DNA from: a virus
Reading direction: 5' to 3' (one strand)
Virus record (IMG/VR): IMGVR_UViG_3300006916_000103
Location: 1 to 41,745 of that record
DNA: 41,745 nucleotides
The translations under genes and the position numbers were made by a program. The notes below the pieces were generated by a model. It ran no database searches. It was not told where the DNA came from and was given only the letters and a program-made list of their open reading frames with translations. Positions 1 through 41,641 of the stretch are shown here, piece after piece. Positions within the stretch are counted from its first letter, which is position 1. Every line of letters starts with the position of its first letter.

Positions 1-2
1 AG

Positions 3-671
3 CAGATTCGACTAGAAAACATGATGCAGTCTGGGACTGGAGCTACTTCATTGGCTGGTGGATCACCTACGGGTACTCAAGTTGATAGATCAGGTAAGGC
101 ATTGGGTACACTTTTGACTCAGACTAGATCGCAGTTTAGTAAGTTTGTGAGAAAGTTTGAGAAAAGAATGATTGAAAAAAGCCTACAGAAGTCATGGGAT
201 ATAATTATACAATTTTTTGACGATGAGATATTGATACCTATACAGGGTTCTGATGGGGTAGTTACATCGAAATTACAAACACCTTCGGAGATAGTTGGTC
301 AATTTAAGATAAATGTATCAACAGGGTCTCAATTTTTAAAAGAGCGTGAGTATCGGGACTCTATACTCGAATTACTATCTGTGGCTGGTATAAATGATAA
401 ATTTATTGAGACGCTTGATATTGTACCGATGCTACAAGAGATTGCTATGTCACTATCACCAAAATTAGCCAGATTTATAAATCCTGATAACTTGGTAAAT
501 AAGCAATCTCAGATGATAAAGCAACTACGACAGGCTCTAGAAAATGTGGGGGAACAGAATAAAGACTTATATGAAGAAGCAAAGAGATTGCAGGGAGAGT
601 TAAAACAAACTGATAGAGCTGCTGCATCCATACCTGGTCCTATTGAGAAAGAGGAGCTTAAGACAAATTGA
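3..671 (+). CDS. Portal protein, C-terminal part (5'-truncated by window edge)
   Basis: This reading frame enters at the window edge and encodes the last 222 residues of the portal protein; the complete gene is at 39307-41328. The residues match that protein's C-terminus except for three substitutions near the end (K/Q, R/Q and A/S in the final coiled-coil stretch). The segment is helical, with a Gln/Glu/Lys-rich coiled coil at about the last 60 residues, as expected for a portal barrel or C-terminal region. The stop TGA overlaps the TTG start of the next gene. Since this is the same locus seen from a second strain, it should be counted once. Confidence 0.9.
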   Translation, partial: QIRLENMMQSGTGATSLAGGSPTGTQVDRSGKALGTLLTQTRSQFSKFVRKFEKRMIEKSLQKSWDIIIQFFDDEILIPIQGSDGVVTSKLQTPSEIVGQFKINVSTGSQFLKEREYRDSILELLSVAGINDKFIETLDIVPMLQEIAMSLSPKLARFINPDNLVNKQSQMIKQLRQALENVGEQNKDLYEEAKRLQGELKQTDRAAASIPGPIEKEELKTN

Positions 672-931
672 TTTATGAACAGTCTGATGAGGATTTAGAA
701 AAAATAAAGAATGCTTCTTATATGAAAGATTTATTAACAACGCCAGGCTGGAGATTAATAGATTCAGGAATAAAAGATGAGTTATCTTCATTAAAAGTAA
801 AAAGGGACAGTTCCGATGACCCTAACATTATAATGTCTTGCATTAGGCAGGAAGATGGTATAATGTTCGTTAAAGAGGTTATTCAAGAGTATATTACTCT
901 TGGTGACGAAGCAGTGAAAAACTCTGCCTAA
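668..931 (+). CDS. Small head-region protein, unknown
   Basis: This 87-aa, acidic, mostly helical protein sits between portal and scaffold. The only in-frame start is TTG at 668, which overlaps the portal stop (TTGA), so initiation is probably translationally coupled; a GAGGAG lies about 13 nt upstream. The second allele at 41325-41588 keeps the frame with only a few residue changes, which shows that it is a conserved coding gene. No domain is recognised. Its position suggests a capsid-assembly or minor head role, but nothing in the sequence proves it. Confidence 0.7.
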   Translation: MIYEQSDEDLEKIKNASYMKDLLTTPGWRLIDSGIKDELSSLKVKRDSSDDPNIIMSCIRQEDGIMFVKEVIQEYITLGDEAVKNSA

Positions 932-941
932 ATAACACTCC

Positions 942-960
942 ACGTGGTCGTCAACCACGT
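942..960 (+). promoter_or_regulatory. Hairpin in the scaffold leader
   Basis: A perfect 7-bp stem (ACGTGGT / ACCACGT) with a 5-nt loop CGTCA lies between the 87-aa gene and the scaffold start at 985. There is no T-run, so it is not a simple terminator; it could be an RNA-processing, stability or translation-control element. In the second allele (41599-41617) the stem carries a mismatch, and a different perfect palindrome ACCACGTGGT (41596-41605) appears. Confidence 0.5.
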
Positions 961-984
961 AAAACAGACGTAAGGAGAAAAAAA

Positions 985-1824
985 ATGCCTATTGAAGACA
1001 TTGAAATTAAAGCACCTGAGATTTTGACACAAGAAATGGGGGAATCTGTATTTAACGAGATGTTTGATCAGAAACAGCCAGGTGTTAAGAATCAAGATGC
1101 AGACTTAGGAGTAAGTGAATCACTTAACCAAGTCGAGGATGATATACCTAATGCTTCTATTCGTTTAGAGAAGATGAAGAAGCAAAGGGATGATGCTACA
1201 CAGGAGATGCAGGCTCTAAAAGAACAGTTTGCTGAACTAAAAGGTCAAATATCAGCCTTTAAAGATTTAAATAATAATAATGGAGATATAGATACGGAGG
1301 TTGATCCTACGGAGTATATGGATGATGTTCAGAAGTTAAATTATACTGAAACCCAAAATCTAAAAGAGCAGGTTAAACAGTTAACTGATGTTATCCAGGG
1401 TATTCAGACTGATAAAACTAAAGATAAAATACAGAAGCAAGAAGACAACTTCTTTGATAGTAAGCCAGAGTTAAAAGCTAAAAAAGATGAGGTTGTTGGA
1501 GAGCTTCTAGATTACCTTAAAGATAAGCCATCGATTAAGGCTATGATCAAAGAGGGATCTGTAACTTTAAATGAAGTTTACGGCATGTATTCAGCCAGTA
1601 AACCTCAATCCACAAAAACATCTCAGGTTAGTAATCCTGATAAATTTTTTAGTGGGCATTCTGAACCTGTGCAGTCTAATAGAGATCAAGTATCTGAAAA
1701 TGATGTTAATCGCAAAAAAGCGTTAAGAATATTAAGAAACAAGGAATCTATGAATAAATCTGACGCAGTTAATTACCTTAAGGATACAATAACCTCAGAT
1801 CTAATCTCACAACTAGATTTTTAA
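985..1824 (+). CDS. Capsid scaffolding protein (probable)
   Basis: The 279-aa product is very rich in Glu, Asp, Lys and Gln. It has a long predicted coiled coil at about residues 55-90 (RLEKMKKQRDDATQEMQALK and following) and a second helical stretch near 125-150. It lies directly before the major capsid gene, the usual scaffold position. Low hydrophobicity, no catalytic motif and length all fit a phage scaffold. The start has an AAGGAG site 8 nt upstream. The C-terminus is a small helical, basic segment, as in scaffolds that bind the capsid shell. The call rests on position and composition rather than a sequence-family match. The beginning of a second allele is at 41642-41745. Confidence 0.8.
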   Translation: MPIEDIEIKAPEILTQEMGESVFNEMFDQKQPGVKNQDADLGVSESLNQVEDDIPNASIRLEKMKKQRDDATQEMQALKEQFAELKGQISAFKDLNNNNGDIDTEVDPTEYMDDVQKLNYTETQNLKEQVKQLTDVIQGIQTDKTKDKIQKQEDNFFDSKPELKAKKDEVVGELLDYLKDKPSIKAMIKEGSVTLNEVYGMYSASKPQSTKTSQVSNPDKFFSGHSEPVQSNRDQVSENDVNRKKALRILRNKESMNKSDAVNYLKDTITSDLISQLDF

Positions 1825-1842: not shown

Positions 1843-2754
1843 ATGGCTACTTTATATTCAACATATCAAGCTCAACAAAATGCGCGAGACGTATCGGACT
1901 TTGTAACAAATGTATCCCCAAAGGATAGTCCGTTTTTTTCATTAATTGGATCAAACGCCGGAGGATCTCGATTAAAAGAGAATGTAACTGATTCTTTAGC
2001 AGCAGCGAACAAGGACAATGCATTAGCAGAAGGTGGTACATTTTCAGATGATACAATTGGCACTAGATCTACTGAGTCAAACTATATGCAGATTTTTGAT
2101 AAAGTCATTAATGTTACGGGGACTCAAGAAGAAGTTCTCAAATATGGCGGTGTTAAATCAGAGCTTGCTTATCAGGTTAAGAAACGTTTTACTGAACTTG
2201 CGACTGACGTTGAAGAGGCTTTCATTCAAGGTGTCTCAGCTTCTGGGACAACAGCGGTTGCACGTAAACTCAATGGTCTTGTGGCAAAGATCACCACAAA
2301 TACAGCCACAGCAGATATTACTGGCGCTACATGGACTGGAACAAGTGACGCTAACTTAGCAGCTTTTGAAGATTCACTTAATGATATGTTTGACCAAATG
2401 TGGACAACGGGACAAGCCCCAGACACAGTATTAGTTGGTGGTGACCGTAAGAGACGAATTTCTAAGTTATCAACTAAAGTAACACGAAACGTTGAGGCCG
2501 AGCGCAAAACACAAATTTTATCAATTAACGTATATGATTCAGATTTTGGTACAGTAAATGTCATTCTTGATAGATACGTTCCTGACGCAAATATTCTAGC
2601 GGTAGCTCTAGATATGTGGGAAGTTTCATATTTAAGACGTTTTACACAATTCAAATTAGCAAAGACTACTGATAGCACTCGTATTGCTATTGTTGGTGAG
2701 CTAACATTGGATGGTAAGACAGAGAAGGCTGGCGGTAAAATTACAGCTTCATAA
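1843..2754 (+). CDS. Major capsid protein, DUF5309 / SU10-like
   Basis: The 303-aa protein forms the phage head shell (HK97-type fold expected). The N-terminal pattern DVSDFVTNVSPKDSPFFSLIG (about residues 17-36) is typical of the DUF5309 (SU10-type major capsid) family. It is followed by the conserved 'E..YMQIFDKVINVTGTQE' segment near residue 80 and a TRNVEAE/LDRYVPD region toward the C-terminus. It has a strong AAGGAG ribosome site and sits 18 bp after the scaffold. A strong rho-independent terminator follows directly, so this gene can be the most abundant 3' product of the head operon. Length is slightly short for the family but domain order looks complete. Confidence 0.92.
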   Translation: MATLYSTYQAQQNARDVSDFVTNVSPKDSPFFSLIGSNAGGSRLKENVTDSLAAANKDNALAEGGTFSDDTIGTRSTESNYMQIFDKVINVTGTQEEVLKYGGVKSELAYQVKKRFTELATDVEEAFIQGVSASGTTAVARKLNGLVAKITTNTATADITGATWTGTSDANLAAFEDSLNDMFDQMWTTGQAPDTVLVGGDRKRRISKLSTKVTRNVEAERKTQILSINVYDSDFGTVNVILDRYVPDANILAVALDMWEVSYLRRFTQFKLAKTTDSTRIAIVGELTLDGKTEKAGGKITAS

Positions 2755-2781: not shown

Positions 2782-2817
2782 AAAAGGCGACGAGTTGAAA
2801 GACTGTCGCCTTTTTTT
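2782..2817 (+). terminator. Rho-independent terminator after capsid gene
   Basis: A 10-bp perfect stem (AAAAGGCGAC / GTCGCCTTTT) with a 13-nt loop runs into a T-run at 2811-2817. It separates the head operon from the glycan cassette and would sharply reduce read-through into it. Confidence 0.9.
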
Positions 2818-2818
2818 A

Positions 2819-2847
2819 TTGAATATGTAATAACATTGTTATAGAAT
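2819..2847 (+). promoter_or_regulatory. Sigma70-like promoter of the glycan cassette with overlapping palindromes
   Basis: A TTGAAT box, 17-nt spacer and TAGAAT box directly follow the terminator. Two perfect palindromes overlap it: ATAACA-T-TGTTAT at 2830-2842 and GTTATA-GAA-TATAAC at 2838-2852, both operator-like. With a normal 7-nt discriminator, transcription would start at about 2854, the A of the next ATG, so the first mRNA could be leaderless. This is predicted from sequence only. Confidence 0.6.
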
Positions 2848-2853
2848 ATAACC

Positions 2854-3186
2854 ATGTTTACTTTACAAGAATTGGCTATAGCTTCAGATGTGGACCTGTC
2901 ACGAATAAATCCAGAGATGTCTGATTTTGATCAAAAGGTAGAGATGGCTAATCAGCTTGTTAAAAAGTGGATGAAAAACCCTAAAAACAGAGAGTATCTT
3001 GATGAAAAAAAATCAGATTACATCCATGACAGAGGCTGGTCCGTAGGCTCTAACTTTAAGCATGAGGTCGATATACCTCAGGAAGCTTTTCTTCTATTAC
3101 CTAAAGAGATACGTAGTGATAAAAAAGAACTTATGAAATGGGCATCAAGGTATCACCCGTATCTTTTTCATAAAAGTGTAGTATGA
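2854..3186 (+). CDS. Unknown protein, first gene of glycan cassette
   Basis: The 110-aa protein is soluble and has no recognised domain. It is charged, with a helical N-terminus and aromatic-rich C-terminal end (SRYHPYLFHKS). There is no Shine-Dalgarno sequence before the ATG, and the predicted promoter would place the transcription start at the ATG itself. The next ATG in frame (residue 22, in PEMSDF) also lacks a clear ribosome site. Its stop overlaps the following transferase start (ATGA), so it belongs to the same unit. It could be an accessory factor for glycan transfer or a capsid protein that is decorated, but no function can be assigned. Confidence 0.75.
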   Translation: MFTLQELAIASDVDLSRINPEMSDFDQKVEMANQLVKKWMKNPKNREYLDEKKSDYIHDRGWSVGSNFKHEVDIPQEAFLLLPKEIRSDKKELMKWASRYHPYLFHKSVV

Positions 3187-3905
3187 GTCACCCATGCATT
3201 GATTGGATACCTTCAGAAGTAGCTCTAAGATGCAATATTTTTTGGACATTAGATTTTGGCATCCCAGAATTACCAGGACCAAAAATTTGGATTGAGCACG
3301 GCATCCCTGATAATCATGTTCTATCTAAGAGGCAATTCCATGATGATGTACATTATCTTTGTAATAATAATTGGACGTATGATAACTTAAAAAAAAACGG
3401 CTTAATGGCTTATCATGTAGGTAGTATTTATACGGACATGACAATTCCTCGTCGTAGAAATCCATCTAAACTTGTATATGCGCCTCAGCATTGTAGAATG
3501 GAGCATCATAGTTTACCTGTGGAATGGAATCAAGAACCTCTGACTAAATTGGAGTTAGAAAAAATATGCGAAGATTATGATTGTGATGGATACATTACAT
3601 CTATTGTTGATGATACTCAAAGGGATTTGTACGATCACTTAAATCCAATAATGAGTAATAGATTTTACAATATGGGTCGTGAACATTTTAAAAAATGTCA
3701 GTTTTTATATGAAAACGCAAAAGTTGTCTATTCGGACCTGATGTCGACATTCGATATAGTTGCCGAATCACACGGGATTAAGGTGATAGGCAGGGGCAAT
3801 CAAAATATGCCTCGTGATTACGATAATATAGAGGTATTAACAGATGGACAGTCATGCGCTCGTATTTTAAAGGTCATAAAGGAGATACTGGATGGATTTT
3901 CTTAA
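3183..3905 (+). CDS. GT-B-like glycosyl / glycerophosphotransferase
   Basis: This 240-aa protein has two features of GT-B or CDP-glycerol-type transferases. The first is a 'KIWIEHGIPD' segment (about residues 34-43), similar to the WIEHG region of CDP-glycerol glycerophosphotransferases. The second is a C-terminal 'AKVVYSDLMSTFDIVAESHG' segment followed by IKVI (about residues 178-201), which matches the nucleotide-sugar-binding 'SD.SST..EA...G.PVI' pattern. The short length suggests a reduced or single-lobe version. The start overlaps the previous stop (ATGA) and the end overlaps the methyltransferase. Donor and acceptor are unknown; a CMP-nonulosonate or another sugar nucleotide is possible, given NeuA and NeuB elsewhere in the genome. 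Confidence 0.6.
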   Translation: MSHPCIDWIPSEVALRCNIFWTLDFGIPELPGPKIWIEHGIPDNHVLSKRQFHDDVHYLCNNNWTYDNLKKNGLMAYHVGSIYTDMTIPRRRNPSKLVYAPQHCRMEHHSLPVEWNQEPLTKLELEKICEDYDCDGYITSIVDDTQRDLYDHLNPIMSNRFYNMGREHFKKCQFLYENAKVVYSDLMSTFDIVAESHGIKVIGRGNQNMPRDYDNIEVLTDGQSCARILKVIKEILDGFS

Positions 3906-4593
3906 ATCTTTAGACTTACCATTAGCTAAAAAGTATAGATCGGTAATATTTATGCATCCTAGATGGACCCCGTTGTCTGCCTGGACACAACATATACCGT
4001 TTGCATTTTTTTTAATGGCAGTTATGAAGCCTAAGAAAGTTGTTGAGCTAGGATCTTTTTTAGGTTCTTCATTTTTTGCTTTTTGCCAAGCAGCTAAAGA
4101 ACTTGATATAGACACGCAGTGTTATGCAGTGGATACATGGGAAGGAGATAAGCATGCGGGTCACTATGATGATGATATATATAAGACTGTTGTGGCAGCG
4201 CATTCTCATTATAGGGAGTTTGCATATTTATTGCGGATGACATTTGATAAAGCAAATAAATTATCTGAAACTAACAATGTGGATTTGTTGCATATAGATG
4301 GGCTTCATACATATGAGGCTGTCAAACATGATTTTGAAACATGGTTACCAAAGATGTCTGATAATGGTGTAATTATATTTCACGATACAACTGAGATGAA
4401 AGAGGATTTTGGAGTCTGGAGATTATGGAATGAAATATCAACACAGTATCCATCGGCGAATTTCTCTCACGGTCATGGTCTTGGGATATTGCTGGTGGGG
4501 AGTAAAGTAAAAAAAGAACTTAGGAGGTTTGTTAAAGATAAACACTTCCATTCTTACGAACATCTATTTCACATACTTGGAGTATCTATATGA
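3892..4593 (+). CDS. SAM-dependent methyltransferase (Methyltransf_24-like)
   Basis: A class I methyltransferase of 233 aa. The SAM-binding motif I is KVVELGSFLGSSFF (about residues 45-58), an acidic motif II lies in 'CYAVDTWEGD' near 77-86, and the family hallmark 'LLHIDGLHTYEAVKHDFETW' is at about 131-150. It ends with 'GVIIFHDT'. This family often O-methylates sugars or glycan chains and is common in polysaccharide clusters. The start is preceded by AAAGGAG and lies inside the end of the preceding transferase; its stop overlaps the next glycosyltransferase (ATGA). Role inferred: methylating the glycan made or transferred by its neighbours. DNA methylation is unlikely, because no DNA-methylase catalytic motif is present. 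Confidence 0.8.
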   Translation: MDFLKSLDLPLAKKYRSVIFMHPRWTPLSAWTQHIPFAFFLMAVMKPKKVVELGSFLGSSFFAFCQAAKELDIDTQCYAVDTWEGDKHAGHYDDDIYKTVVAAHSHYREFAYLLRMTFDKANKLSETNNVDLLHIDGLHTYEAVKHDFETWLPKMSDNGVIIFHDTTEMKEDFGVWRLWNEISTQYPSANFSHGHGLGILLVGSKVKKELRRFVKDKHFHSYEHLFHILGVSI

Positions 4594-5816
4594 TTAAAAA
4601 ACAAAAAGGTTGGAAGTTAAGAGTATGTATAATATCCAAAAATAAAGGTTTTTGTTACTACTACAGATTGAAGTGGCCTTTAGCTGAGCTAGAGAAGAGA
4701 GGGTTAGTTGAAACGCGAGGTTTAGATTGGTCAAACCCTGAATTTAAGAGGAATATAGGTAAGTACATGTCAGATGCCGTAGAGTGGGCAGATGTTATTA
4801 TATTTCATTATACAAACCCTTCTGATATTTTAGTTAGATTTAATGATTTTGCAATACAGAATAAATTACCTAAATTATTTGTGTCAGAATTTGATGATGA
4901 TTTTACATGTGTCCATCCATCTAACAGTTATTACAGGTATGCCGGAATAAAGAATATTCAGTTATCTGATGGTAATTATGCTTGGAAAGATGGGGAATTG
5001 TGTGATCCACTTGGGGAGTATAATGATGCAAGCGATTCTGAAAAAGACGCTTTTCGATTTAATATTTTAAGAAATAAGGCAAGAATGGCGAAGATGTTTA
5101 GAGCTCTCATATATTCAGATGTCATAACCTGTACAACCCCAGATCTCGGATTAACATTTAATAAGTGGAACGAAAACGTTTCTATTTTACCTAATTTTAT
5201 TAACCCAGATGAAATGAACTACCCTGGTAAAAAGAAGAGGCGTGACCATGTATTAATAGGGTGGCAAGGTGGTGATAGTCATCATCACGATTTAAAAATG
5301 ATTATGCCGGCATTAAAAATGATTAAGGAAAAGTACAAGGATAATGTCAAATTTAGATTTTATGGAGCAGCTTTTGTTAATATGTATAAAGAAATAAATG
5401 GTGAACATATAGAGTGGATAGATCCAGAAAAATTTAATAAAGTATTTTCAGAAGACCTTATTGATATAGGGATAGTCCCATTAATAGATCCAGAGATTAA
5501 TCGTTTCAATAACTCAAAATCTAATATAAAATGGCTTGAGTATTCACACTACGCAATACCATCCGTAGTTTCTGGGTGTAAACCATACGTTCAACATATA
5601 GAGGATGGGAAGACAGGGCTTTTGGCTTATAGTGTAAATGACTGGTTTAATCACATATGCAAACTTATAGATGACCCTATTTATAGATTTAAATTAGGAT
5701 CAGATGCAAAAAAACATGTTGATTTAAATTTCTCTATCCAGAATCATGCGTATAAGTGGTATGATTTATATATGAATGCGCTTAATGCAAAGGTTAAGCA
5801 TTTATCTACAATATGA
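4590..5816 (+). CDS. GT4-family-like glycosyltransferase
   Basis: The 408-aa protein has GT-B architecture. An N-terminal Rossmann-like half contains 'RLKWPLAELEKRG' and a 'DVIIFHYT' strand (about residues 68-75). The C-terminal half has 'VLIGWQGGDSHHHDL' (about 221-235) and the donor-binding 'NSKSNIKWLEYSHYAIPSVV' (about 309-328) followed by 'HIEDGKTGLLA', the usual E-x7-E-type region of GT4 enzymes. The start overlaps the methyltransferase stop (ATGA). It is the last gene before the tail adaptor, and 14 bp separate them. It probably transfers a sugar to a virion protein, a growing glycan, or modified DNA; the acceptor cannot be read from the sequence. Confidence 0.82.
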   Translation: MIKKQKGWKLRVCIISKNKGFCYYYRLKWPLAELEKRGLVETRGLDWSNPEFKRNIGKYMSDAVEWADVIIFHYTNPSDILVRFNDFAIQNKLPKLFVSEFDDDFTCVHPSNSYYRYAGIKNIQLSDGNYAWKDGELCDPLGEYNDASDSEKDAFRFNILRNKARMAKMFRALIYSDVITCTTPDLGLTFNKWNENVSILPNFINPDEMNYPGKKKRRDHVLIGWQGGDSHHHDLKMIMPALKMIKEKYKDNVKFRFYGAAFVNMYKEINGEHIEWIDPEKFNKVFSEDLIDIGIVPLIDPEINRFNNSKSNIKWLEYSHYAIPSVVSGCKPYVQHIEDGKTGLLAYSVNDWFNHICKLIDDPIYRFKLGSDAKKHVDLNFSIQNHAYKWYDLYMNALNAKVKHLSTI

Positions 5817-5830
5817 AATAAGGATTTAAT

Positions 5831-6478
5831 ATGGCTACATTCTCATGGACTAGTTTATTTACAAACCAGACTTTAACCCGAGACTCATTTATTACTAACT
5901 TAAGAACTAGGGTTGATGAAGACACAGAGGATAATATTAGTGATACTCAAATTGTATCTCTTATTAATCAGGGGTTAGATAATATTGGTCGAGCAGCTGG
6001 TCTCTTGCCAGAGTATGCCACCGTAAGTGCTGATGGTTCATCATCTTATACATTGCCTACAAACTTAGTTATGCTTGATGAATTGTATTATATCGATACA
6101 AATTCACCAGCAAACTATACATATTTGAGTTCAACTAATTTTCAAGAGCTACAGAGTAACGGATATAGCTCAGACACTCCTTATTATTATGTTAGAGAAG
6201 GTGAGAATGTATCAATATTTGGAAGCGGTAAAAGCACAGGTACTTATCGCCTATATGGTAGTAGAATACCTACAAAGCCAGCAACTGGCTCATCATATAT
6301 AGATTTGCCAGATCAATATATAGAGTTACTTTACTTATGGTGTGAATGGAAATATTGGGTGAGAAGAAGAGTCCCAGATGAATCTTCTTTAGCTCGAGAG
6401 TTGTATTTTAGTATATTAAATAGTGTTCGAGAACAGGTTGTGTCCCAGTACTCAAGAGGCGCTACAGCTTATGGCTAA
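5831..6478 (+). CDS. Head-tail adaptor protein
   Basis: The 215-aa protein is predicted to sit below the portal and link it to the tail nozzle. An N-terminal helical segment 'RDSFITNLRTRVDEDTEDNI' (residues 17-36) is followed by 'LINQGLDNIGRAAGLLPEY', a beta-rich middle ('YTLPTNLVMLDELYYID'), and a C-terminal helix 'LYLWCEWKYWVRRRVPDESS'. This order is characteristic of gp4/gp6-like connector adaptors of short-tailed phages. It lies between the inserted glycan cassette and the nozzle gene and overlaps the nozzle start by 8 bp. AAGGAT serves as ribosome site. Confidence 0.72.
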   Translation: MATFSWTSLFTNQTLTRDSFITNLRTRVDEDTEDNISDTQIVSLINQGLDNIGRAAGLLPEYATVSADGSSSYTLPTNLVMLDELYYIDTNSPANYTYLSSTNFQELQSNGYSSDTPYYYVREGENVSIFGSGKSTGTYRLYGSRIPTKPATGSSYIDLPDQYIELLYLWCEWKYWVRRRVPDESSLARELYFSILNSVREQVVSQYSRGATAYG

Positions 6479-13087: not shown

Positions 13088-14206
13088 ATGGCACGAACAA
13101 TAAGTCAAATATCAGGAGAATTCGGATTGTCTCGAGGGGCAACTGCCGATCCATTTTCAAAGCAGGAAGCTGCAGTATTATCTAATGTGCAAAGATCTTT
13201 GCAAGATATAAGGTCTCAACAACTAGAATCTGAATCAGGAAGAGGGTTCGGTAGAAGCTCTTTTGCAGATGCTGCATTTTCTAGACAAGCAGAGGGTGTT
13301 GTGGGTCAGGTGGGACAACAGTTTGCTCAAGCTAGAACACAAGAACAGTTAGCTGAGAATCAATTTCAAAGGAATATTATAGGGCAACAGGTTGGGGCTG
13401 ATGTTAGTAGCCGATTATTAGGCGAACAGACAGCAGCAGAACAGCAATTAATAGGTTCTAGAGGGGCTGAACAGAGATTAACAGATATAGCAGGTGTTGA
13501 GGCAAGAACCGCTAGTGAGCAGCAGCTTATTGGAGCAAGAGGATCTGATACTCGTCAAACTTTAGCCCAGCAAATTGCTGGTCAGCAAGATTTATCAGCC
13601 CAACAGGCTCAGCAGCAACTAGGACAGCTAGAGGCTGCTACACAGGCCGAGACAGGGTTGATAGGTGCTAGAGCAGAAAGCCAAAAAGATTTACTAGCAG
13701 ATCAAATTGCTGGTCAATCAGCATTATCAACACAGGAAGCAGCACAGCAGATAGACAAAATACAAGCTGCAGCTGGTGTTGAAGAGGGCCTTATAGGGGC
13801 TCGTGGAGCCGAGCAACGCCTTGGAATACAGGAGCAAGCACAGGCAGCGGAAAGCTTAGCTCAGGTACAAGGTATTGAGCAAAGGATTACGCAATCTCAA
13901 AATTTTCAAGAACAAGGCAATTTAATTAATCAAAAAGCTGAGATTCAAACACAGCAGGCTAATCAACAATTTCAGAATGATTTAGCTCTTCTTAATCAGA
14001 AGTATGATCGAGTTATACAATCATTGCCTGAGGAATTTAAATTAAAGGCTGAATATGAAGAACAGGTTTTTGAGAATAAATTACAAATTACAAGAGAGCA
14101 ACAGATTGTTGATTTTGCGACAGAGGCAGCCTTCACTCAGTTATTAAGTATATTAGGGGGAGATTTGCCGGGATTAGATTTAGACCTACCGGAGATAAGT
14201 ATATAA
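13088..14206 (+). CDS. Gln/Ala-rich internal virion (ejection) protein
   Basis: 372 aa with unusual Gln, Ala and Gly content. It has imperfect approximately 40-residue repeats containing 'EQQLIGARG'/'EEGLIGARGAEQRL' blocks that predict long alpha helices or coiled coils. The N-terminus 'FSKQEAAVLSNVQRSLQDIR' and 'GRGFGRSSFADAAFSRQA' resembles proteins that open internal-virion operons in short-tailed phages. The stop overlaps the next gene's ATG. AGAGAGG is the ribosome site. The role in DNA ejection is inferred from composition and neighbours. Confidence 0.6.
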   Translation: MARTISQISGEFGLSRGATADPFSKQEAAVLSNVQRSLQDIRSQQLESESGRGFGRSSFADAAFSRQAEGVVGQVGQQFAQARTQEQLAENQFQRNIIGQQVGADVSSRLLGEQTAAEQQLIGSRGAEQRLTDIAGVEARTASEQQLIGARGSDTRQTLAQQIAGQQDLSAQQAQQQLGQLEAATQAETGLIGARAESQKDLLADQIAGQSALSTQEAAQQIDKIQAAAGVEEGLIGARGAEQRLGIQEQAQAAESLAQVQGIEQRITQSQNFQEQGNLINQKAEIQTQQANQQFQNDLALLNQKYDRVIQSLPEEFKLKAEYEEQVFENKLQITREQQIVDFATEAAFTQLLSILGGDLPGLDLDLPEISI

Positions 14207-19754: not shown

Positions 19755-19909
19755 TTTTTTAGCTCCTCATTATCTTTAGTTATTAAATACCATATATACG
19801 CAGACATCGACATATTTCTTTTATTAGCACACTCCTTCATATATTTCTTTTGATCTGAATTTACTCTCATATAGAAGTGCTCTGACTTCTTATTGTTTAT
19901 AATAACCAT
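19751..19909 (-). CDS. Ribbon-helix-helix DNA-binding protein
   Basis: A 52-aa frame. The segment 'FYMRVNSDQKKYMKECANKR' followed by 'NMSMSAYIWYLITKD' (residues about 12-46) fits the beta-strand, helix, turn, helix pattern of Arc/MetJ/MobC-type RHH proteins, with a short strand (FYMRV) that would read the major groove. It is coupled by ATGA to the 94-aa gene and overlaps the SDR gene's end by 13 bp. It could be a phage repressor acting on the palindromes at 2830, 21249 or 34331. Target is inference. Confidence 0.65.
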   Translation of the reverse strand: MVIINNKKSEHFYMRVNSDQKKYMKECANKRNMSMSAYIWYLITKDNEELKK

Positions 19910-20910
19910 CTATCATTCCTTAATGACCAGTATACGGTATTACAAAGATTATCCATGACGTTTCCTGGCTCCCACCCTATAGACTTCATTCTAGAACCAT
20001 CTAATGCATACCTCAAGTCGTGCCCTGGTCTTGATGAGTGGAAGTCCACCATCTCATATATTAATTCTTTACCAACGTTTAAAGCTATTGTCTTTGCAAG
20101 CTCAAGATTATCTATTTCCTTTGACCCCACAATATTGAATTTCTGACATTTTACACCGCTATCGTGTATGGGCATGTTAACTGTATCGTAATTTATAAGA
20201 TGCAAAAGTGCAGATGCGACATCTTTTGCATGTATATAATGCCTAGAACCAGCCTTTTTCATTGACTCATCCGAGTGTATTGTTACTTTCTGACCATCCC
20301 TAACCTTCTTAATGCACATTGGTATGAATTTTTCTGGATGCTGACGCTCTCCAAATACATTCATAGTATGTGTAATTATAGCTGGTAGTCCGTATGTGTT
20401 GTGATAGGCTACTACAAGCTCCTCAGCAGCAGCTTTTGATGCGCTATAAGGGTTTGTCGAGTTATATCTATCATACTCTTTATACGATAAACCCTGTGGT
20501 GCTGGACCAAATATTTCGTCCGTAGAAAAATATATAAACTTCTTTAATGATTTAAGTTTTCTTGCATAATCCATGATATTTACTGTACCTACTGTATTAT
20601 CAAGAACAAAATCCATAGGGTAATCAATTGATCTATCTACATGAGACCCTGCTGCAAGGTGCGCGATATAGTCAACATCTCCAATCATTTTTGATATCAT
20701 AGGGTTTACTGCCGACTTTAAGTCATGATGTACGATTGATAATCGTTTTGAGTTTTTTACAGAATCCATATTTAGATCTGAAATTCTATTTAGATTTCCA
20801 CTATAGTCTAGTCTATCAAGACATACTATATCCCAATCAGTATTCAGGTAAATGTATTCTAGTAAATGATGCCCTATGAATCCGGCTGCACCAGTTATTA
20901 ATATCCTCAT
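19897..20910 (-). CDS. NAD-dependent sugar-nucleotide 4,6-dehydratase/epimerase (extended SDR)
   Basis: The 337-aa enzyme belongs to the extended short-chain dehydrogenase group. It has the Rossmann motif GAAGFIGHH (residues 7-15), 'HLAAGSHVDRSI' (about 86-97), 'IYFSTDEIFG' (about 127-136) with the TDE triad of dTDP-glucose 4,6-dehydratases, and catalytic Tyr/Lys in 'NPYSASKAAAEE' (about 153-164). The C-terminal substrate part contains 'GSRHYIHAKDVASALLHLI'. It most resembles RmlB-type 4,6-dehydratases; LegB/PseB or other SDR substrates remain possible. The start overlaps the DUF6378-like stop (ATGA). It likely feeds the glycan pathway, although it lies 4 kb from NeuA and NeuB. Confidence 0.85.
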   Translation of the reverse strand: MRILITGAAGFIGHHLLEYIYLNTDWDIVCLDRLDYSGNLNRISDLNMDSVKNSKRLSIVHHDLKSAVNPMISKMIGDVDYIAHLAAGSHVDRSIDYPMDFVLDNTVGTVNIMDYARKLKSLKKFIYFSTDEIFGPAPQGLSYKEYDRYNSTNPYSASKAAAEELVVAYHNTYGLPAIITHTMNVFGERQHPEKFIPMCIKKVRDGQKVTIHSDESMKKAGSRHYIHAKDVASALLHLINYDTVNMPIHDSGVKCQKFNIVGSKEIDNLELAKTIALNVGKELIYEMVDFHSSRPGHDLRYALDGSRMKSIGWEPGNVMDNLCNTVYWSLRNDRWLL

Positions 20911-21980: not shown

Positions 21981-24919
21981 TAATCTAGCCCCTCTTCATT
22001 AAAGTCATACTCTACTTCTGTTTTTATATTATTCATCTTATTTATATCCTCTAGAACCTCTTCGTCAAAATTGTTTTTATATGTCATTATTGCCTTTAGC
22101 ATTCTGCATCTATCTAATATTATCGCAGACCCTTTTGAGCCCCCTGTATTATGGTTTTTTAGATCCGAGTCTTTATCTATTATATGAAACTTCCTCAATA
22201 ATTGCTTAAGCTTCTGGTATGTCATATAACTAAAATCATCTTCATTCTCTTTACTCTTTAAGACGTCTTTAATGAAGTGATCGCTTATTCCTCTACGTAT
22301 ATATACATCGCCATCATATAGGAAGCTCATATCTTTTATTTTTCCATCCTGAACTCTTTTAATCCAAAGATATAACCTCTCTACTATCTCTAATGATTTA
22401 GTATCCCCGCCAAACGCCTCTCTTGTATCTACTCCATCCCTTGCCTTTTCAAGCATAATATTAAAAACACTCTCATTTACATGTGACTTATCATCTATTA
22501 GCTTTGCTACACATAGGTATGGGGTCCACAACTCTTTCTGCCTAAATGTAACCTTACTCTTTTTTAACTCTTCGCGCTTATTAGATAATGATGTTCTGTA
22601 GATATCGTCAACATCCTTCGCGTACTGCATACCAAAGCAATAGATCATATCTCTAAGCTCCTGAGATTCATCTTTCACGTTAGCCTCTATAAGCTCCTCT
22701 ATCTCAACGCCCTCCATGGCTCTAATCATCTCTAATAAAATCATCCTATCTTCAAGTATGGAGTCGGCGCCTTTTGTTCCAGCAAATATTTTCATACAGT
22801 AGTTATGAAACGTAACAACCGAGTTCGATTGTCCCTCACACCTTGTTGCCGAACCGCTCTTTTTGTACCCAGCCTTCAAAAGTTCTAATTTTTCTGACTG
22901 CCCTACCTCTCTTTGCTTTTGAGTTGGGTTAAGATTTTCAGCTTCATCTATAAGAAGCATGCAGCGGAACGCCTCAACACTCCTAAAAAGGGCTGCATCA
23001 GATATTGATGACGCAAGTTGCGAGTTAAAACCTAAGAGATGAAATATCTCTAAAAGTGTCGTTTTGCCAGACCTTTTTTCAGCTAGAAGGTGGACATAGC
23101 CGACTGCATTGAAAACCATAAATAACGATGTCACCATTAATAATACTGCACAGAATGAAGCATCGTAATTTTTTTTAAAATAAACAAATCTATTTATAAA
23201 TTTAAGAAGTTTCTCGTATAAATCTCTTGGATCTACCATGGCCTTGCCATTTACGTACTTATTTACCGAGTATGGGCCATCCTTAAAAGACCAGTACTCA
23301 CACCTATACTCAGGGCCTAATTTCCTCTGTAGCGCGAAGTTTTCTTTAATAATCTGGTAATCTTTTACTACCGAGATATCTCCATTCGAGCAAACCATTA
23401 AAACTTCATTAACAACCTTCATTATTCCATTTTTATCAGTAACGGTCTTAGGTCTTGTTATTGTGTAATAAAGAAACCCCTCCTTATAATCTTGCCCTGA
23501 GCTTATTAGCTTTATATCATTTTCATGATCTTTAAATATAGACGACTTATCATCCTCTGTATCCTTATCTTTGAACACCTCAGTTTGACTTGAAAAGACC
23601 AAGTCTTGTATAGACCTAAGTATATTTTTAAATGATGATAACTTGAATCGTTGCTTTATCTTATCTAAAACGTAAACCTCAGCAATATGTTTCGGCATAC
23701 TTGAAAGGAGGTTGCATATCGGTTCTAGTTTTAAAACGAGATCTTTCTTGTCAGTATCAGGTGGTATTTTATTAATTAAGTGATCTATATAAGATTCTGA
23801 TTCTAACTTTAATTCATGGAAAGCCTCGACACCTTTATCTTTTATAAATTCATTTAAATCTATTTTAGATACTCCAGGGCCCCTAGGCAATAGTATAACA
23901 AAAGGGTTAATGCCAGCATGTAACAACATTTCACAAATTCTATCAGTACCCTTCTGGCCAGCCTGATTTTCATCGTTATCATTAGCGATATAAACCCGTT
24001 TAAAATTCTTACAAAATTCAACGACTCTTCCATACTCATCTCTTTTGAATGATGTCGTGACCGCAGATACGGAATTGATCCCATGCATCTTTGCTGATAA
24101 ATAATCTGTAACCCCTTCCGTTATGACAACTTCATCATTGTCTTTGCTGCACTTAATTATCTGGTTTTTTATTGATTTTGATACCCATGGTCTTTTCTCA
24201 GAGTTTAAGTATTGCTTAAAATACTTTGGGGACTCTACTCCATTGCCCCAATTATTTGTTTTTGATGTCTTTCTACCTATGGTGTACTTTACCACACCGT
24301 AGTCATTATATGGGATGACTAATCTCCCTTGGTATATATGGAATACTCCCGTCTTTGATTTTTCTGATTTATTAAATAACCCTGATGACAAAAGCTCCTC
24401 TTGAGTCCAGTATTCCCGCATATTCACCGAAGGACATACCGCACCATACCCCCATCTTTCAGTCTCTAAAAATTCTTTATTGAATCCATATTTTTTACAT
24501 ATAGACTCAGCCATATTTGTTTTTTTTAACTGTGACTGATATTCGGATACCGCATATTCGATTATATCAAATACAGGCGAGTAAACACCTCCCTCATATG
24601 ATGAGTCCTGTTGATTTATCTCATATTTATTTGCAAGGTATTTTATAGCCCCTTTAAATGACTCTGATGCTTTTTTACCTCTTGAGCATGACCCAAATTT
24701 TATTAGCTCTATTAGATGTATATAATTACCGGATACACCGCAGTTAAAGCAATTAAATGTCGGCTCTATTGTGTTTACCTGAAAGCTAGTCCCAGACTTG
24801 CTACTATGCCCCACAGGGCATTTCCCTATATAGTTATGCCCATTTTCTTTCATCTCTGGGAGATAGCTTAATACCTCACTTATAGTGAGTCTTTTATTTA
24901 TCTCATCTATTATATTCAT
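21980..24919 (-). CDS. Primase-helicase: CHC2 zinc finger, TOPRIM and AAA/helicase-like ATPase
   Basis: 979 aa. The N-terminal zinc finger is 'CPVGH ... CFNC' (residues about 34-59). A TOPRIM domain follows, with 'VVITEGVTDYLSAK' (Glu near 268) and 'VYIANDNDENQAG' (Asp-x-Asp near 314). The C-terminal half has an ATPase: Walker A 'LAEKRSGKTT' near 616 and Walker B 'MLLIDEAEN' near 658. This primes DNA and probably unwinds it; the ATPase resembles DUF3987/phage-plasmid-type helicases more than DnaB. The first zinc ligand pair is C-P-V-G-H rather than C-P-x-H. It follows NeuA directly with overlapping ends. With no DNA polymerase in the genome, it would load host polymerase. Confidence 0.88.
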   Translation of the reverse strand: MNIIDEINKRLTISEVLSYLPEMKENGHNYIGKCPVGHSSKSGTSFQVNTIEPTFNCFNCGVSGNYIHLIELIKFGSCSRGKKASESFKGAIKYLANKYEINQQDSSYEGGVYSPVFDIIEYAVSEYQSQLKKTNMAESICKKYGFNKEFLETERWGYGAVCPSVNMREYWTQEELLSSGLFNKSEKSKTGVFHIYQGRLVIPYNDYGVVKYTIGRKTSKTNNWGNGVESPKYFKQYLNSEKRPWVSKSIKNQIIKCSKDNDEVVITEGVTDYLSAKMHGINSVSAVTTSFKRDEYGRVVEFCKNFKRVYIANDNDENQAGQKGTDRICEMLLHAGINPFVILLPRGPGVSKIDLNEFIKDKGVEAFHELKLESESYIDHLINKIPPDTDKKDLVLKLEPICNLLSSMPKHIAEVYVLDKIKQRFKLSSFKNILRSIQDLVFSSQTEVFKDKDTEDDKSSIFKDHENDIKLISSGQDYKEGFLYYTITRPKTVTDKNGIMKVVNEVLMVCSNGDISVVKDYQIIKENFALQRKLGPEYRCEYWSFKDGPYSVNKYVNGKAMVDPRDLYEKLLKFINRFVYFKKNYDASFCAVLLMVTSLFMVFNAVGYVHLLAEKRSGKTTLLEIFHLLGFNSQLASSISDAALFRSVEAFRCMLLIDEAENLNPTQKQREVGQSEKLELLKAGYKKSGSATRCEGQSNSVVTFHNYCMKIFAGTKGADSILEDRMILLEMIRAMEGVEIEELIEANVKDESQELRDMIYCFGMQYAKDVDDIYRTSLSNKREELKKSKVTFRQKELWTPYLCVAKLIDDKSHVNESVFNIMLEKARDGVDTREAFGGDTKSLEIVERLYLWIKRVQDGKIKDMSFLYDGDVYIRRGISDHFIKDVLKSKENEDDFSYMTYQKLKQLLRKFHIIDKDSDLKNHNTGGSKGSAIILDRCRMLKAIMTYKNNFDEEVLEDINKMNNIKTEVEYDFNEEGLD

Positions 24920-25437
24920 TATCTTAGCTCACTAGGTAGATGGACTTCATGTGCTTTTGTTATAAGTGCACCACAGTAAGTTGATACATTACTGCTCTTT
25001 AGACACTCACTCCTCATTGTTATTACACCGTTTTCAACCCCCTCATTATTGTATGTTCGTACTTCATTTAGATTATTTGATACCAATATGTCAGCGGTCT
25101 TTTTTATAAACCCAGATTTAAACCCTATAACAGACGGTAGTACTACAGACACTATATCGTAGTGGTCCCCCATAGATAGGTATACCCATCTTGCTATAAG
25201 AAAAACTGAATCCTCTGGCTCTAATGCATTCTTAGGTCGCATTAAAACACTTAGCTTATCATCACCCATTTCGAGGAACCGCTCGATGTCCGTTGCTAAC
25301 GCAACTCTAGATATCCTCTTATCTCTTAGGCACTCTTTTATTACATCATCCATAAGAATCTCATTTTTACTTGGGAATCTTTTAGAGTTTTTTTTAGCGC
25401 AAATTATTACAAGTATTTTATTAATTTCTCGTTCCAT
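24919..25437 (-). CDS. neuA: CMP-nonulosonate (sialic acid) cytidylyltransferase, short
   Basis: The enzyme activates a nonulosonic acid with CTP. The N-terminal nucleotide-binding signature 'IICAKKNSKRFPSKNEIL' (residues 11-28) is the NeuA-type A-x-x-x-S-K-R-x-P-x-K-N. 'RVALATDIERFLE' (about 44-56) and 'RPKNALEPEDSVFLIARWVY' (about 67-86) follow the family order. At 172 aa it is shorter than bacterial NeuA (about 220), with the C-terminal part trimmed. GAGG precedes the ATG, which lies inside the end of the HAD gene (31-bp overlap). The exact sugar (Neu5Ac, legionaminic, pseudaminic, KDN) cannot be decided. Confidence 0.82.
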   Translation of the reverse strand: MEREINKILVIICAKKNSKRFPSKNEILMDDVIKECLRDKRISRVALATDIERFLEMGDDKLSVLMRPKNALEPEDSVFLIARWVYLSMGDHYDIVSVVLPSVIGFKSGFIKKTADILVSNNLNEVRTYNNEGVENGVITMRSECLKSSNVSTYCGALITKAHEVHLPSELR

Positions 25438-25709
25438 TCTTCAAACCTCACGCCTTTATCATCAATGTATAAGTCTGCCACTGGCTTCCCGAACTGAATA
25501 AGATCGTATTTAACCTTATTCCTACTTAACCAACTTTTAGTAATGCTAAGGTTGTTTATATGTCTTCCTGTGTGAATAATTACTATATTCCCTGTTTTTT
25601 TTAGTTGGGCCATAATTAAAATTGTATTTCTTATAGGACTTCTAAATTGATAATCATCATGGTCTATCTCACATATGACCCCGTCCATGTCAAAACAGTA
25701 TGTCTTCAT
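25407..25709 (-). CDS. HAD-family phosphatase of the nonulosonate cassette
   Basis: A compact 100-aa HAD fold with all four motifs: D7-x-D9-G (CFDMDGVIC), T47 (IIHTGR), K75 (FGKP) and D83-D84 (LYIDDK). It has no cap domain, like KdsC-type or capsule-biosynthesis phosphatases. Between NeuB and NeuA it most simply dephosphorylates a nonulosonate 9-phosphate, which would imply that the NeuB makes a phosphorylated product. Its start overlaps the NeuB stop (ATGA) and its end overlaps NeuA. Phosphatase specificity is inferred. Confidence 0.8.
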   Translation of the reverse strand: MKTYCFDMDGVICEIDHDDYQFRSPIRNTILIMAQLKKTGNIVIIHTGRHINNLSITKSWLSRNKVKYDLIQFGKPVADLYIDDKGVRFEEWNEKLIKYL

Positions 25710-26728
25710 TTTATATTCTCCATTTTTATAGCTGTCTTAGCATTTATATCTGAATTGCAAGTCTTGCCTATTAAATTGCGATAGTAATTACCAGGTATAC
25801 CGTCCCCAGGGCTTAATAGACACAAATTATCTTCCGTAAAAACCTCCCCTTTTCTTATATTTCTATTAGCACATATTGACCGCATTAATTTAATTCTTGA
25901 CCCCTTAATCCCGTCACCATCTATAGCCGATAATGAATGATCTAATCCTATCATTTCTTGAATATAATTCACCTGTCTCCTCATGTATCTAAATTTGACT
26001 GGTGTCAAAGATCCTTTGTGATCTGACCCCTTATCTTCAGGGTCTAATGTCATGTGCTTCTCTATTACTGTTGCCCCCATACAAACCGCAATTTTAACCG
26101 CATCTATCCCCATCGTGTGGTCCGAGTAACCTATTCTATATCGTATTCCATATTGATTCTTTAGTGTGTTTATACGAATTAATCTAGCATCACTATCTTC
26201 TGTTGGGTATTTAGACACACAGTGCATTATTGTTACGTCTTTCTTATATAGTATCTTAAGAGCCTCTGTTAACTCGAAAAAATCACACATACCTGTAGAT
26301 ATTATTATTTTTTTATCCAGAGGCTTTATCCCTTCTAATAAAGGTATGTTGGTTATGTCTCTCGATGCAATCTTAATATATTCGCATTTTGGTATTATGT
26401 GCTCTCTTATTATTCTTTTGTTTAAAAGCGTTGATGAACATAATGTAATAACTACATCCACCCCTAAATCTTTCGCCCTAATACATAAGTTGTTTATATC
26501 TACCGGATCTAACTCTAATTTCTTTCTATGATCCATGTATGTTTTTCCGTAGCTATTTGGTGAATTATAAGGTGAATTAGCCATATCATCCGTCATCTCA
26601 TTATCAAGATCTCTCATGGTTAGCTTGATTGCGTTAACCTGACTCTTTGAGGCCTTCTCTATCATGTTATATGCGGTATCAATATCCCCATTATGGTTTT
26701 GCCCTAACTCAGCTATTATGTATGTCAT
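25706..26728 (-). CDS. neuB: N-acetylneuraminate / nonulosonic acid synthase with SAF domain
   Basis: 340 aa; condenses phosphoenolpyruvate with an N-acyl-mannosamine-type sugar. The TIM-barrel signatures are 'AELGQNHNGD' (residues 5-14), 'IISTGMCDFFELTEAL' (about 145-160), 'MHCVSKYPTE' (about 167-176), 'GYSDHTMGIDA' (about 197-207) and 'VIEKHMTLDPEDKGSDH' (about 218-234). A C-terminal antifreeze/SAF domain is intact ('RNIRKGEVFTEDNLCLLSPG', then 'IPGNYYRNLIGKT'). Length is the family norm, so it is probably active. GAGG lies 7 nt before the ATG. It could be NeuB, LegI or PseI; no NeuC-type epimerase was seen, so the mannosamine-type precursor would come from the host. Confidence 0.93.
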   Translation of the reverse strand: MTYIIAELGQNHNGDIDTAYNMIEKASKSQVNAIKLTMRDLDNEMTDDMANSPYNSPNSYGKTYMDHRKKLELDPVDINNLCIRAKDLGVDVVITLCSSTLLNKRIIREHIIPKCEYIKIASRDITNIPLLEGIKPLDKKIIISTGMCDFFELTEALKILYKKDVTIMHCVSKYPTEDSDARLIRINTLKNQYGIRYRIGYSDHTMGIDAVKIAVCMGATVIEKHMTLDPEDKGSDHKGSLTPVKFRYMRRQVNYIQEMIGLDHSLSAIDGDGIKGSRIKLMRSICANRNIRKGEVFTEDNLCLLSPGDGIPGNYYRNLIGKTCNSDINAKTAIKMENIK

Positions 26729-28195: not shown

Positions 28196-28470
28196 ACTAA
28201 AAACTTAGCAATTTCTATTATAGATATACTAGCGAACCCACCAGCAGCCGTTGCCATATAATCCATGGGGTCGCAGGTGTGATTCTTAGGATTTAGGTAG
28301 TCATAAACCTCTTTCCCTATAGCTCCTGCTTGTACGGCCATTATAGATAAGGGTAAGTTACCTAATGAAACAATACCAACTAAAAAACCAACTATAAAAT
28401 GACCTCTCTTGTCTTTTGCTAACTTTATCATGTGAAAATTCTCCCTTGGTGCGCTTATTAATTTATTCAT
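28192..28470 (-). CDS. Small membrane protein with GKE.YD and D..AT..GG motifs
   Basis: 92 aa. Hydrophobic segments at about residues 24-48 ('HFIVGFLVGIVSLGNLPLSI') and 73-92 ('ATAAGGFASISIIEIAKFLV') suggest two or three membrane helices. 'KDKRGHFIVG', 'GAIGKEVYDYLNPKNHTCDP' and 'DYMATAAGG' resemble a pattern found in YfiM-like or small phage-encoded membrane proteins with a conserved His and Lys-Glu. The start overlaps the repeat-protein stop (ATGA), with AGAGG before it. It could be a superinfection or lysis accessory; unproven. Confidence 0.65.
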   Translation of the reverse strand: MNKLISAPRENFHMIKLAKDKRGHFIVGFLVGIVSLGNLPLSIMAVQAGAIGKEVYDYLNPKNHTCDPMDYMATAAGGFASISIIEIAKFLV

Positions 28471-29975: not shown

Positions 29976-30629
29976 TCAACCTCTCTCGTTCCATTTTAAT
30001 TTGTTCAATAACCTGATATCACCAGATTGCTTGCTATCACTGAATTGCCAGCTATAACCGAATTGTCTGCTATCCCCGAATTGCTTGCTATCTCCGGATT
30101 GCCTGCTATCTCCGTATTGCCTACTATAACCGGATTGCTTACTGTTACCGGATTGCTTGCTGTTACCGGATTGCTTGCTGTTACCGGATTGCTTGCTGTT
30201 ACCGGATTGCTTGCTGTTACCGGATTGCTTGCTGTTACCGAACTGCTCGCTATAACCGTGTTGCCTGCTATAACCATATTGTCTGCTATTCCCGTATTGC
30301 CAGCTATAACCGAATTGCTGGCTATTATCGTATTGCTGGCTATCTCCGAATTGCTGGCTATTACCGGATTGCCTGCTATTACCGTATTGCTTACTGTTAC
30401 CTTTAGCGATTGAATCCTCACTGCGTCTTGAGTTCTCATAACCAACAGACTCATCAAAAAGCCAGCATGCCCCTAACTGTGATAGGTTTTCTTCAGAAGC
30501 AATCCAGCCTCCCTTATCTCCTTTTTTCACATCTCCTCCAATAGTTTTAAAATCTTTCAAAGCTTCTATTCTGTATACAATAACCCCTGGCTCTAACTCT
30601 CTTGTATCTTCTGTCAATTTGTACTTCAT
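29976..30629 (-). CDS. Shorter paralogue of the YdcK-like repeat protein
   Basis: 217 aa. The N-terminal 75 residues differ from the neighbour at only a handful of positions (for example PGVIV for QGVIV, GGDV for AGDV). About 20 hexads follow, including a run of six near-identical SKQSGN units, and the protein ends 'KLKWNERG'. The two genes are three bases apart and arose by duplication. It ends with the same TGGAACGA-AGAGGTTGA sequence that also ends the Lar gene upstream, which carries the ribosome site for the next gene. Function unknown; surface, fibre-like or host-interacting roles are possible. Confidence 0.78.
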   Translation of the reverse strand: MKYKLTEDTRELEPGVIVYRIEALKDFKTIGGDVKKGDKGGWIASEENLSQLGACWLFDESVGYENSRRSEDSIAKGNSKQYGNSRQSGNSQQFGDSQQYDNSQQFGYSWQYGNSRQYGYSRQHGYSEQFGNSKQSGNSKQSGNSKQSGNSKQSGNSKQSGNSKQSGYSRQYGDSRQSGDSKQFGDSRQFGYSWQFSDSKQSGDIRLLNKLKWNERG

Positions 30630-41328: not shown

Positions 41329-41588
41329 TTTATGAACAGTCTGATGAGGATTTAGAAAAAATAAAAAATGCTTCTTATATGAAAGATTTATTAACAACGC
41401 CAGGCTGGAGATTAATAGATTCAGAAATAAAAGAGTTTTTATCTTCATTAAAGGTAAAAAGGGACAGTTCCGATGATCCTAACATTATAATGTCTTGCAT
41501 TAGGCAGGAAGATGGTATAATGTTCGTTAAAGAGGTTATTCAAGAGTACATTACTCTTGGTGAAGAAGCAATGAAAAACTCTGCCTAA
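41325..41588 (+). CDS. Small head-region protein, second allele
   Basis: 87 aa, TTG start overlapping the portal stop as in the other copy. It differs at a few residues, mainly the segment 'SEIKEFLSSL' against 'SGIKDELSSL', and near the end EEAM against DEAV. Same unknown function. Confidence 0.7.
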   Translation: MIYEQSDEDLEKIKNASYMKDLLTTPGWRLIDSEIKEFLSSLKVKRDSSDDPNIIMSCIRQEDGIMFVKEVIQEYITLGEEAMKNSA

Positions 41589-41641
41589 ACAAAACACCAC
41601 GTGGTAGTGAAACACGTAAAACAGAAGTAAGAAGAAAAAAA

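Follow-up and report, generated by a model that had tools for sequence, protein, structure and literature searches.

A GT4-like glycosyltransferase in a candidate glycan cassette behind the major capsid gene of an uncultured phage

Introduction

The IMG/VR virus record IMGVR_UViG_3300006916_000103, which we analyzed over its full 41,745 bases (the window), carries a glycosyltransferase (GT) gene and a methyltransferase gene between the genes for its major capsid protein (MCP) and its head-tail adaptor, a place where structural genes are expected. What do sugar-modifying enzymes do in a head gene cluster, and on what do they act? A preliminary description had read these genes as a coupled glycan-transfer cassette directly behind the capsid gene, composed of a GT-B-like transferase, a sugar-type methyltransferase and a GT4 glycosyltransferase. 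Together with NeuB, NeuA and a short-chain dehydrogenase/reductase (SDR) encoded elsewhere in the window, the cassette was thought to make, activate, transfer and methylate a sugar, with capsid or fibre protein, phage DNA or the host surface as possible targets.

In the mycobacteriophages Che8, Corndog and Myrna, phage GTs modify the phages' own capsid and tail tube proteins (Freeman et al. 2023, as cited in excerpts of PMC12363180, PMC12619734 and PMC12691614). Phage-encoded virion glycosylation is known, and a recurrent capsid-adjacent GT slot seems to be new. Here we report that relatives of the window GT lie behind MCP genes of three families. On a narrow balance, we favor an inherited glycan cassette within the structural cluster, whose GT4 would glycosylate one of the phage's own virion proteins, with the MCP as the likeliest, and whose methyltransferase would then O-methylate the sugar.

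Results

Four open reading frames (ORFs) on one strand fill the slot between the MCP and adaptor genes (Table 1), and two of them are of glycan type. Successive frames share 4, 14 and 4 bases, and the adaptor gene starts 14 bases further on, so that the four ORFs look translationally coupled, as had been described. The placement holds as well, with an SU10_MCP gene 5' and an SU10_adaptor gene 3' of the ORFs. The earlier observation as a whole is partly confirmed, with corrections: the cassette as drawn begins with ORF110, a protein that matches no family, and a terminator-like hairpin separates ORF110 from the MCP gene. A hairpin is found in the same gap in six of the seven relative stretches that we folded (in locus L061 it has no T run); the exception is L077, where the folded stretch was mostly coding. 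A promoter-like site at 2819-2847 comes after the hairpin; a promoter of the cassette's own is not claimed, since the region scanned contains 30 such sites against a shuffle mean of 39.8. A perfect inverted repeat, GTTATA GAA TATAAC, occupies window positions 2838-2852 just 5' of the ORF110 start; L008 and L009 have a different sequence with AGGAGG at this place.

The last ORF of the slot is clear as a member of PHROG 7162, 'glycosyltransferase', and weak in Pfam, where matches to the GT4-type families PF13692, PF13524 and PF00534 all stayed below the curated cut-offs (best E value 9.5e-5). Its description as a GT4 glycosyltransferase stands for the glycosyltransferase and is backed by sub-threshold matches for the GT4 type, whose predicted activity would be retaining sugar transfer from a nucleotide sugar. 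A profile of five GT4 relatives matched solved GT4-type enzymes with an E value of 2.8e-4 at best, and the GT4 of the relative L061 exceeds the cut-offs of both PF00534 and PF13692. Four relatives of the window GT4 share 70-40% identity with it. In the five GT4 sequences compared, Gly-224, Gly-227, Gly-228, Ser-230, His-231, Lys-310, Asn-312, Lys-314 and Glu-317 are invariant, and all of these except Asn-312 are what we take to be GT4 donor-domain residues. The first Glu position of the presumed E-x7-E motif is a serine, and in one of the five sequences an alanine. A second phage group has longer GT4 ORFs: in L066 (5668-7398) the latter part of the ORF has its match in a different glycosyltransferase family (phrog_26101, 3.4e-12), and L065 and L079 encode proteins of 578 and 571 amino acids. 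Two small conserved ORFs lie between the MCP and GT4 genes in the L066-type group.

We compared the slot among close relatives. L002-L004 represent the same virus as the window (100% identity over the cassette and 12-14 kb) and were not counted as independent support. The layout recurs in the distinct relatives G004 and G005 at 53-76% identity and is therefore more than chance. All four genes are present in G004 and G005, and also, together with two small ORFs, in L054 and L055, which are near-copies in GT4. The slot of G006 contains ORF110, the methyltransferase and GT4, that of G007 contains ORF110, a GT2 (PF00535, 2.3e-12) and GT4, and that of L077 only ORF110 and GT4. ORF110 and GT4 are thus the constant slot genes, being kept in the family members read while the others vary. 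Identity between the window and G004, G005, G006 and G007 is 69.8, 57.9, 45.3 and 39.7% for GT4, 67.4, 64.4, 55.2 and 47.1% for the terminase, and 65.1, 57.7, 47.4 and 47.1% for the adaptor. GT4 divergence roughly parallels that of terminase, portal and adaptor, being slightly faster in the more distant relatives, which argues that the cassette was inherited with the head genes. Recent acquisition is disfavored by this core-like divergence and by a G+C content of the four slot ORFs (32.5-36.0%) close to that of neighboring genes (34.4-39.4%; window mean 36.8%). G005 also has an RtcB-type RNA ligase gene (L038:3191-4393; PF01139, 1.4e-61).

Outside this family, the placement of GT4 behind MCP genes recurs. 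The profile of five GT4 proteins led to 55 viral loci. In 29 of the 46 loci outside the nine family loci, a recognized MCP gene lies upstream on the same strand, 0-6 ORFs away; none was found downstream of GT4 in the 46, within the sequence stretch available at each. L068 was counted as having no MCP, since its candidate matched only itself and PHROG 29538 (unknown function). With the family added and near-copies removed, an MCP gene is upstream in 26 of 40 loci as a raw count; 16 of these MCPs are of the phrog_1357 type, nine of the SU10 type and one of the phrog_267 type. Five MCP seeds were confirmed by PHROGs, and the other MCP assignments are profile or BLAST matches. By location, the GT is tied to structural genes. 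A GT4-domain tree of 38 of the 40 rows (L098 and L102 were dropped for short matched regions) contains the window's clade of seven rows (support 100/100) and, at 99/98, another clade made up of 11 phrog_1357 rows, suggesting that in two lineages or more GT4 has long been in this place.

Ten chosen proteins beside GT4 or in the slot were identified where possible. Six are GTs, dehydratases or methyltransferases, namely a GT4 in L061, a TOD1/MUCI70-type GT in L062, a dehydratase and a C-methyltransferase in L064, and methyltransferases in L065 and L072. Three gave no match (in L060, L064 and L073), and one is an SU10 adaptor, in L060. The order in L060 is MCP, small gene, unknown gene, GT4 and adaptor, and its small gene belongs to the LUZ24-like family (1.7e-11). 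A further sugar-type gene of such a location, for an Anp1-like GT, occurs in two Manatee Spring records.

The methyltransferase scores 89.3 bits against PF13578, well above the curated cut-off of 26.3. The methyltransferase of the preliminary description is thus confirmed, and the enzyme is probably of the sugar O-methyltransferase type. An Asp/His motif (HIDG[LF]H plus HD), which we take to form the methyltransferase metal site, is kept in three of the five variants that we read, those of the window, L037 and L040. The G005 methyltransferase departs from the cassette trend, having 35.6% identity and, like that of L054, lacking residues of the Asp/His motif.

The other two slot ORFs are less easily placed. 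For ORF240, described before as a GT-B-like transferase, we found no match in Pfam or NCBIfam and nothing significant in the PDB; its best PHROG match is a family of unknown function (E value 0.016), and its AlphaFold2 model is poor (mean pLDDT 41.6), so that the assignment is not upheld. By eye it resembles CDP-glycerol transferases, a candidate identity that we rejected as there is no PF04464 match. Pattern scans located ORF240 in eight viral loci, a count that takes in the window's own virus; none of the genome contigs had it, and no counterpart was found in G006 or G007.

ORF110 has relatives at 76, 65, 51 and 38% identity, and occurs also in L054, L077 and, weakly, L061. Scans of Pfam, PHROG and NCBIfam returned no family for it. 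The AlphaFold2 model is all-alpha (mean pLDDT 80.7); a fold search with it gave nothing at E <= 0.001 in the PDB and one uncharacterized phage protein (9.7e-7) in a viral library. ORF110 persists where ORF240 or the methyltransferase is absent, and it is probably a head-associated core gene rather than a glycan enzyme. When the ORF110 profile was run against ten records, the LUZ24-like small gene ranked first in five. In the reverse search ORF110 came first only in L037, with an E value of 4, and was outside the best three in the window; hhalign gave the pair a probability of 4.4%.

We also asked where the proposed sugar-synthesis genes occur. The NeuB, phosphatase and cytidylyltransferase-like genes lie together on the strand opposite the cassette, near primase and helicase. 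The cytidylyltransferase-like (NeuA-like) protein is, at 172 residues, short for a CMP-sugar synthetase; its homologue in G004, 43% identical, matches PF02348 at 5.4e-5. The same trio is found at the same place in G004, and G005 has a YopX-type gene there instead. We searched 15 records, a mix of close kin, fragments and distant MCP relatives, for NeuB and the SDR: NeuB was present in four, three of them the window's own virus, and the SDR in three, all of them the window's own virus. No NeuB match was obtained in G005 (38.6 kb) or G007 (38.1 kb), both of which carry GT4 in the slot. NeuB was likewise found in none of 23 further GT4-behind-MCP records, most of them fragments and four longer than 34 kb, with the control positive in nine of 14 genomes. 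As the distributions of NeuB and SDR differ from that of GT4, we judge them to be modules separate from the cassette. The claim that they make up one pathway is therefore not sustained, and the two gene groups largely fail to co-occur in related phages; a joint pathway would at most be a special case of the window's virus and G004.

Table 1. Features of the window, with the slot ORFs and their borders first and the separate modules last

Feature	Position	Strand	Evidence
Major capsid protein (MCP), SU10 type	1843..2754	+	PF17236 SU10_MCP, E 7.9e-74; phrog_1328, 2.2e-75
Terminator-like hairpin 3' of MCP gene, T run after	2782..2814	+	46-base fold, -17.7 kcal/mol
ORF110, small all-helical protein	2854..3186	+	relatives only; no family match
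ORF240, proposed transferase	3183..3905	+	no significant family match; only in window's close clade
Class I methyltransferase, Methyltransf_24	3892..4593	+	PF13578, E 3.6e-25
GT4-like glycosyltransferase, constant glycan gene of the cassette	4590..5816	+	PHROG 7162, E 3.8e-39
Head-tail adaptor, right border of the slot	5831..6478	+	PF24175 SU10_adaptor, E 6.4e-15
NeuB-type synthase, separate module	25706..26728	-	PF03102, E 4.5e-56
Small HAD-type phosphatase beside NeuB, separate module	25407..25709	-	TIGR01689, E 2.1e-11 (sub-threshold)
Short cytidylyltransferase-like protein (NeuA-like, 172 aa), separate module	24919..25437	-	no Pfam match; NF003952, 0.0055
RmlB-like SDR (nucleotide-sugar 4,6-dehydratase type), separate module	19897..20910	-	TIGR01181, 245 bits against cut-off 365

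The two ends of the window (1-1088 and 40658-41745) match each other at 1,029 of 1,088 overlapping bases; the record thus covers roughly a single genome length, its ends deriving from variants that differ slightly. Its structural side is of the SU10/P22 kind, and its portal and terminase match P22- and T7-type models weakly, below cut-off. Two adjacent proteins encoded at 28467-29972 and 29976-30629 have a near-identical N-terminal part and long QYGNS/QSGNS-like repeat arrays; the 501-residue QYGNS/QSGNS-repeat protein has no Pfam match. Another protein, from the plus-strand gene block (14206-16008), carries a long APDIQ/APDIE-like repeat array.

Discussion

What, then, would the cassette modify? 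We favor a virion protein because GT4 relatives have an MCP gene of one of three families upstream in most of the non-redundant loci, and we regard the MCP as the likeliest acceptor since the genes with which GT4 is associated, of three types, all encode MCPs. In our model, the cassette would be expressed late, and the GT4-like enzyme would use a nucleotide sugar, most likely supplied by the host, as donor and attach its sugar to the MCP or another virion protein. The methyltransferase would then cap the transferred sugar by O-methylation, with ORF240 possibly adding or altering one more group. The phage may benefit through shielding or an altered particle surface.

Several observations weigh against this proposal. 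No recognized MCP is present in 14 of the 40 non-redundant loci (two of which have at most one base upstream), our GT4 scan patterns came from MCP-adjacent family members, so that near relatives are over-represented, and by the tree the independent GT4 placements are fewer than 26. Of 315 records matched, we examined nine named MCP relatives: a GT4-type enzyme is annotated in the slot of none, a GT of another type in two, and no GT in seven. GT4 relatives also lie away from MCP genes. By tblastn, Streptomyces phage Zuko has a GT related to the window GT4, located 5' of the terminase, and Phapecoctavirus nepoznato has one related to the L066 GT4, near primase and DNA polymerase and accompanied by three more GTs; a further relative belongs to a GT group of Arthrobacter phage Racecar. 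The GT4 relationship alone thus does not fix the acceptor, which we infer from gene position alone. The methyltransferases of L039 (7790-8464) and L054 (5291-5992) keep the overall sequence with changed Asp/His-motif residues, as if they had turned non-catalytic or been given another role. Finally, ORF240 is confined to the window's close clade, and neither family libraries nor the PDB nor structure prediction assigns it a function.

Among the targets named in the preliminary description, location speaks best for a virion protein, leaves the host surface as a possible target and makes DNA less likely. GT4 enzymes commonly build lipopolysaccharide, and the GT4 and methyltransferase could alter this or another envelope glycan of the host, blocking superinfection or readsorption to debris. 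The pelagimyophage authors favored such a role for their own GTs (excerpt of PMC7029224), and in L093, one of the GT4 relatives, a GtrB-like gene is found on the same stretch. Yet the cassette overlaps ORF110 within the structural cluster and would act late, GT4 location tracks MCP genes of three types, and Pfam, PHROG and NCBIfam scans found no Gtr-type family among the cassette proteins; we consider host-surface modification unlikely, though to be kept in mind. That GT4 instead glycosylates modified bases of the phage DNA appears quite improbable. DNA-glycosylating phage GTs have been reported, to go by the title of Pyle et al. 2024, and the Phapecoctavirus relatives of GT4 sit among replication genes and other GTs. 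The window's cassette, in contrast, lies with head genes, whereas primase, helicase and ThyX are encoded on the opposite strand. PF00303, which we take to be the family holding base hydroxymethylases, had no match in the window or in G001, G004, G005, G007 and G015, with the control positive in nine of 14 genomes each time; a Tet/JBP search was empty too, but its control also gave no match.

Alternatively, the slot could be neutral cargo space among the head genes, where unrelated genes accumulate, some of them for glycan enzymes, and play no role at the capsid. Its content in other phages fits such a view: only small or structural genes in phiIBB-PAA2, a tRNA and a GDSL hydrolase in phiM5, and unnamed small genes in HTVC106P. 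GT4, on the other hand, is present in each of the five distinct members compared and has diverged as core genes have, and in the chosen loci GTs, methyltransferases and dehydratases turn up repeatedly at its side, making a chance collection improbable. The seven-gene pathway, with NeuB, the HAD-type phosphatase, the NeuA-like protein and the SDR making the sugar that the cassette transfers, has in its favor that all its genes are present in the window and that the NeuB cluster recurs in place in G004, which has the full cassette. Against it stand G005 and G007, which keep GT4 with no NeuB match, the 23 mostly fragmentary records negative for NeuB, the restriction of the SDR to one virus, and a mismatch in donor type, as GT4 enzymes normally use nucleotide-diphosphate sugars and not CMP-sugars. 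We reject this pathway as a general unit and regard it as highly improbable. The earlier interpretation is thus partly supported, for a glycan-transfer unit at this place and not for the joint pathway.

We compared the cassette with known systems. With Che8, Corndog and Myrna it shares phage-encoded GTs and, as we propose, a virion protein of the phage's own as target; phages and hosts differ, and the present system is known from genes alone. In the Manatee Spring podovirus ctQWt234 (MW202801), much as in the window, the MCP gene is followed by a small gene and then by a glycan island, which includes a methyltransferase and a relative of GT4 (26.5% identity over 81% of the protein); a stabilization protein gene comes next. 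This podovirus, which is uncultured, has a longer island, with an Fe-S enzyme, a second GT, PhyH and NodB in addition, and its small gene gave no match to ORF110. The LUZ24-like Bruynoghevirus phiIBB-PAA2 and Sinorhizobium phage phiM5 share with the window the order of terminase, portal, scaffold, MCP, small gene and tail genes, and their MCPs are 32-36% identical to that of the window; unlike in the window, no GT is annotated between MCP and tail genes. The preliminary description knew of no described phage system combining all of these genes. The mycobacteriophage work, as excerpted, already describes virion glycosylation and MW202801 has a longer island; the exact gene combination was not searched as such. 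In the literature covered, mostly titles and abstract starts with few subscription papers, we recognized no paper describing GT genes behind the MCP gene as a recurrent locus, and among the matches listed for NeuB in phages nothing was pertinent.

The presence of related GTs behind the capsid genes of distantly related phages suggests that these viruses may coat their own particles with sugars. We tentatively extend this to a generalization that we hold to be possible, if rather less than an even bet: uncultured tailed phages in general may have a virion-glycosylation locus right behind the MCP gene, in which a PHROG 7162-related GT4 is fixed and exchangeable partners (GT2, ORF240, methyltransferases, deacetylases and dehydratases) diversify the glycan coat of the head. 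If so, sugar-coated virions would not be a speciality of actinobacterial phages and would extend to environmental phages with SU10-, phrog_1357- and phrog_267-type capsids. The surface chemistry of particles could be read from one locus and compared across phages, and the glycan could be guessed from the genes in one short stretch; a trait that is now scattered would become testable at a clear locus and would bear on particle survival, adsorption and recognition.

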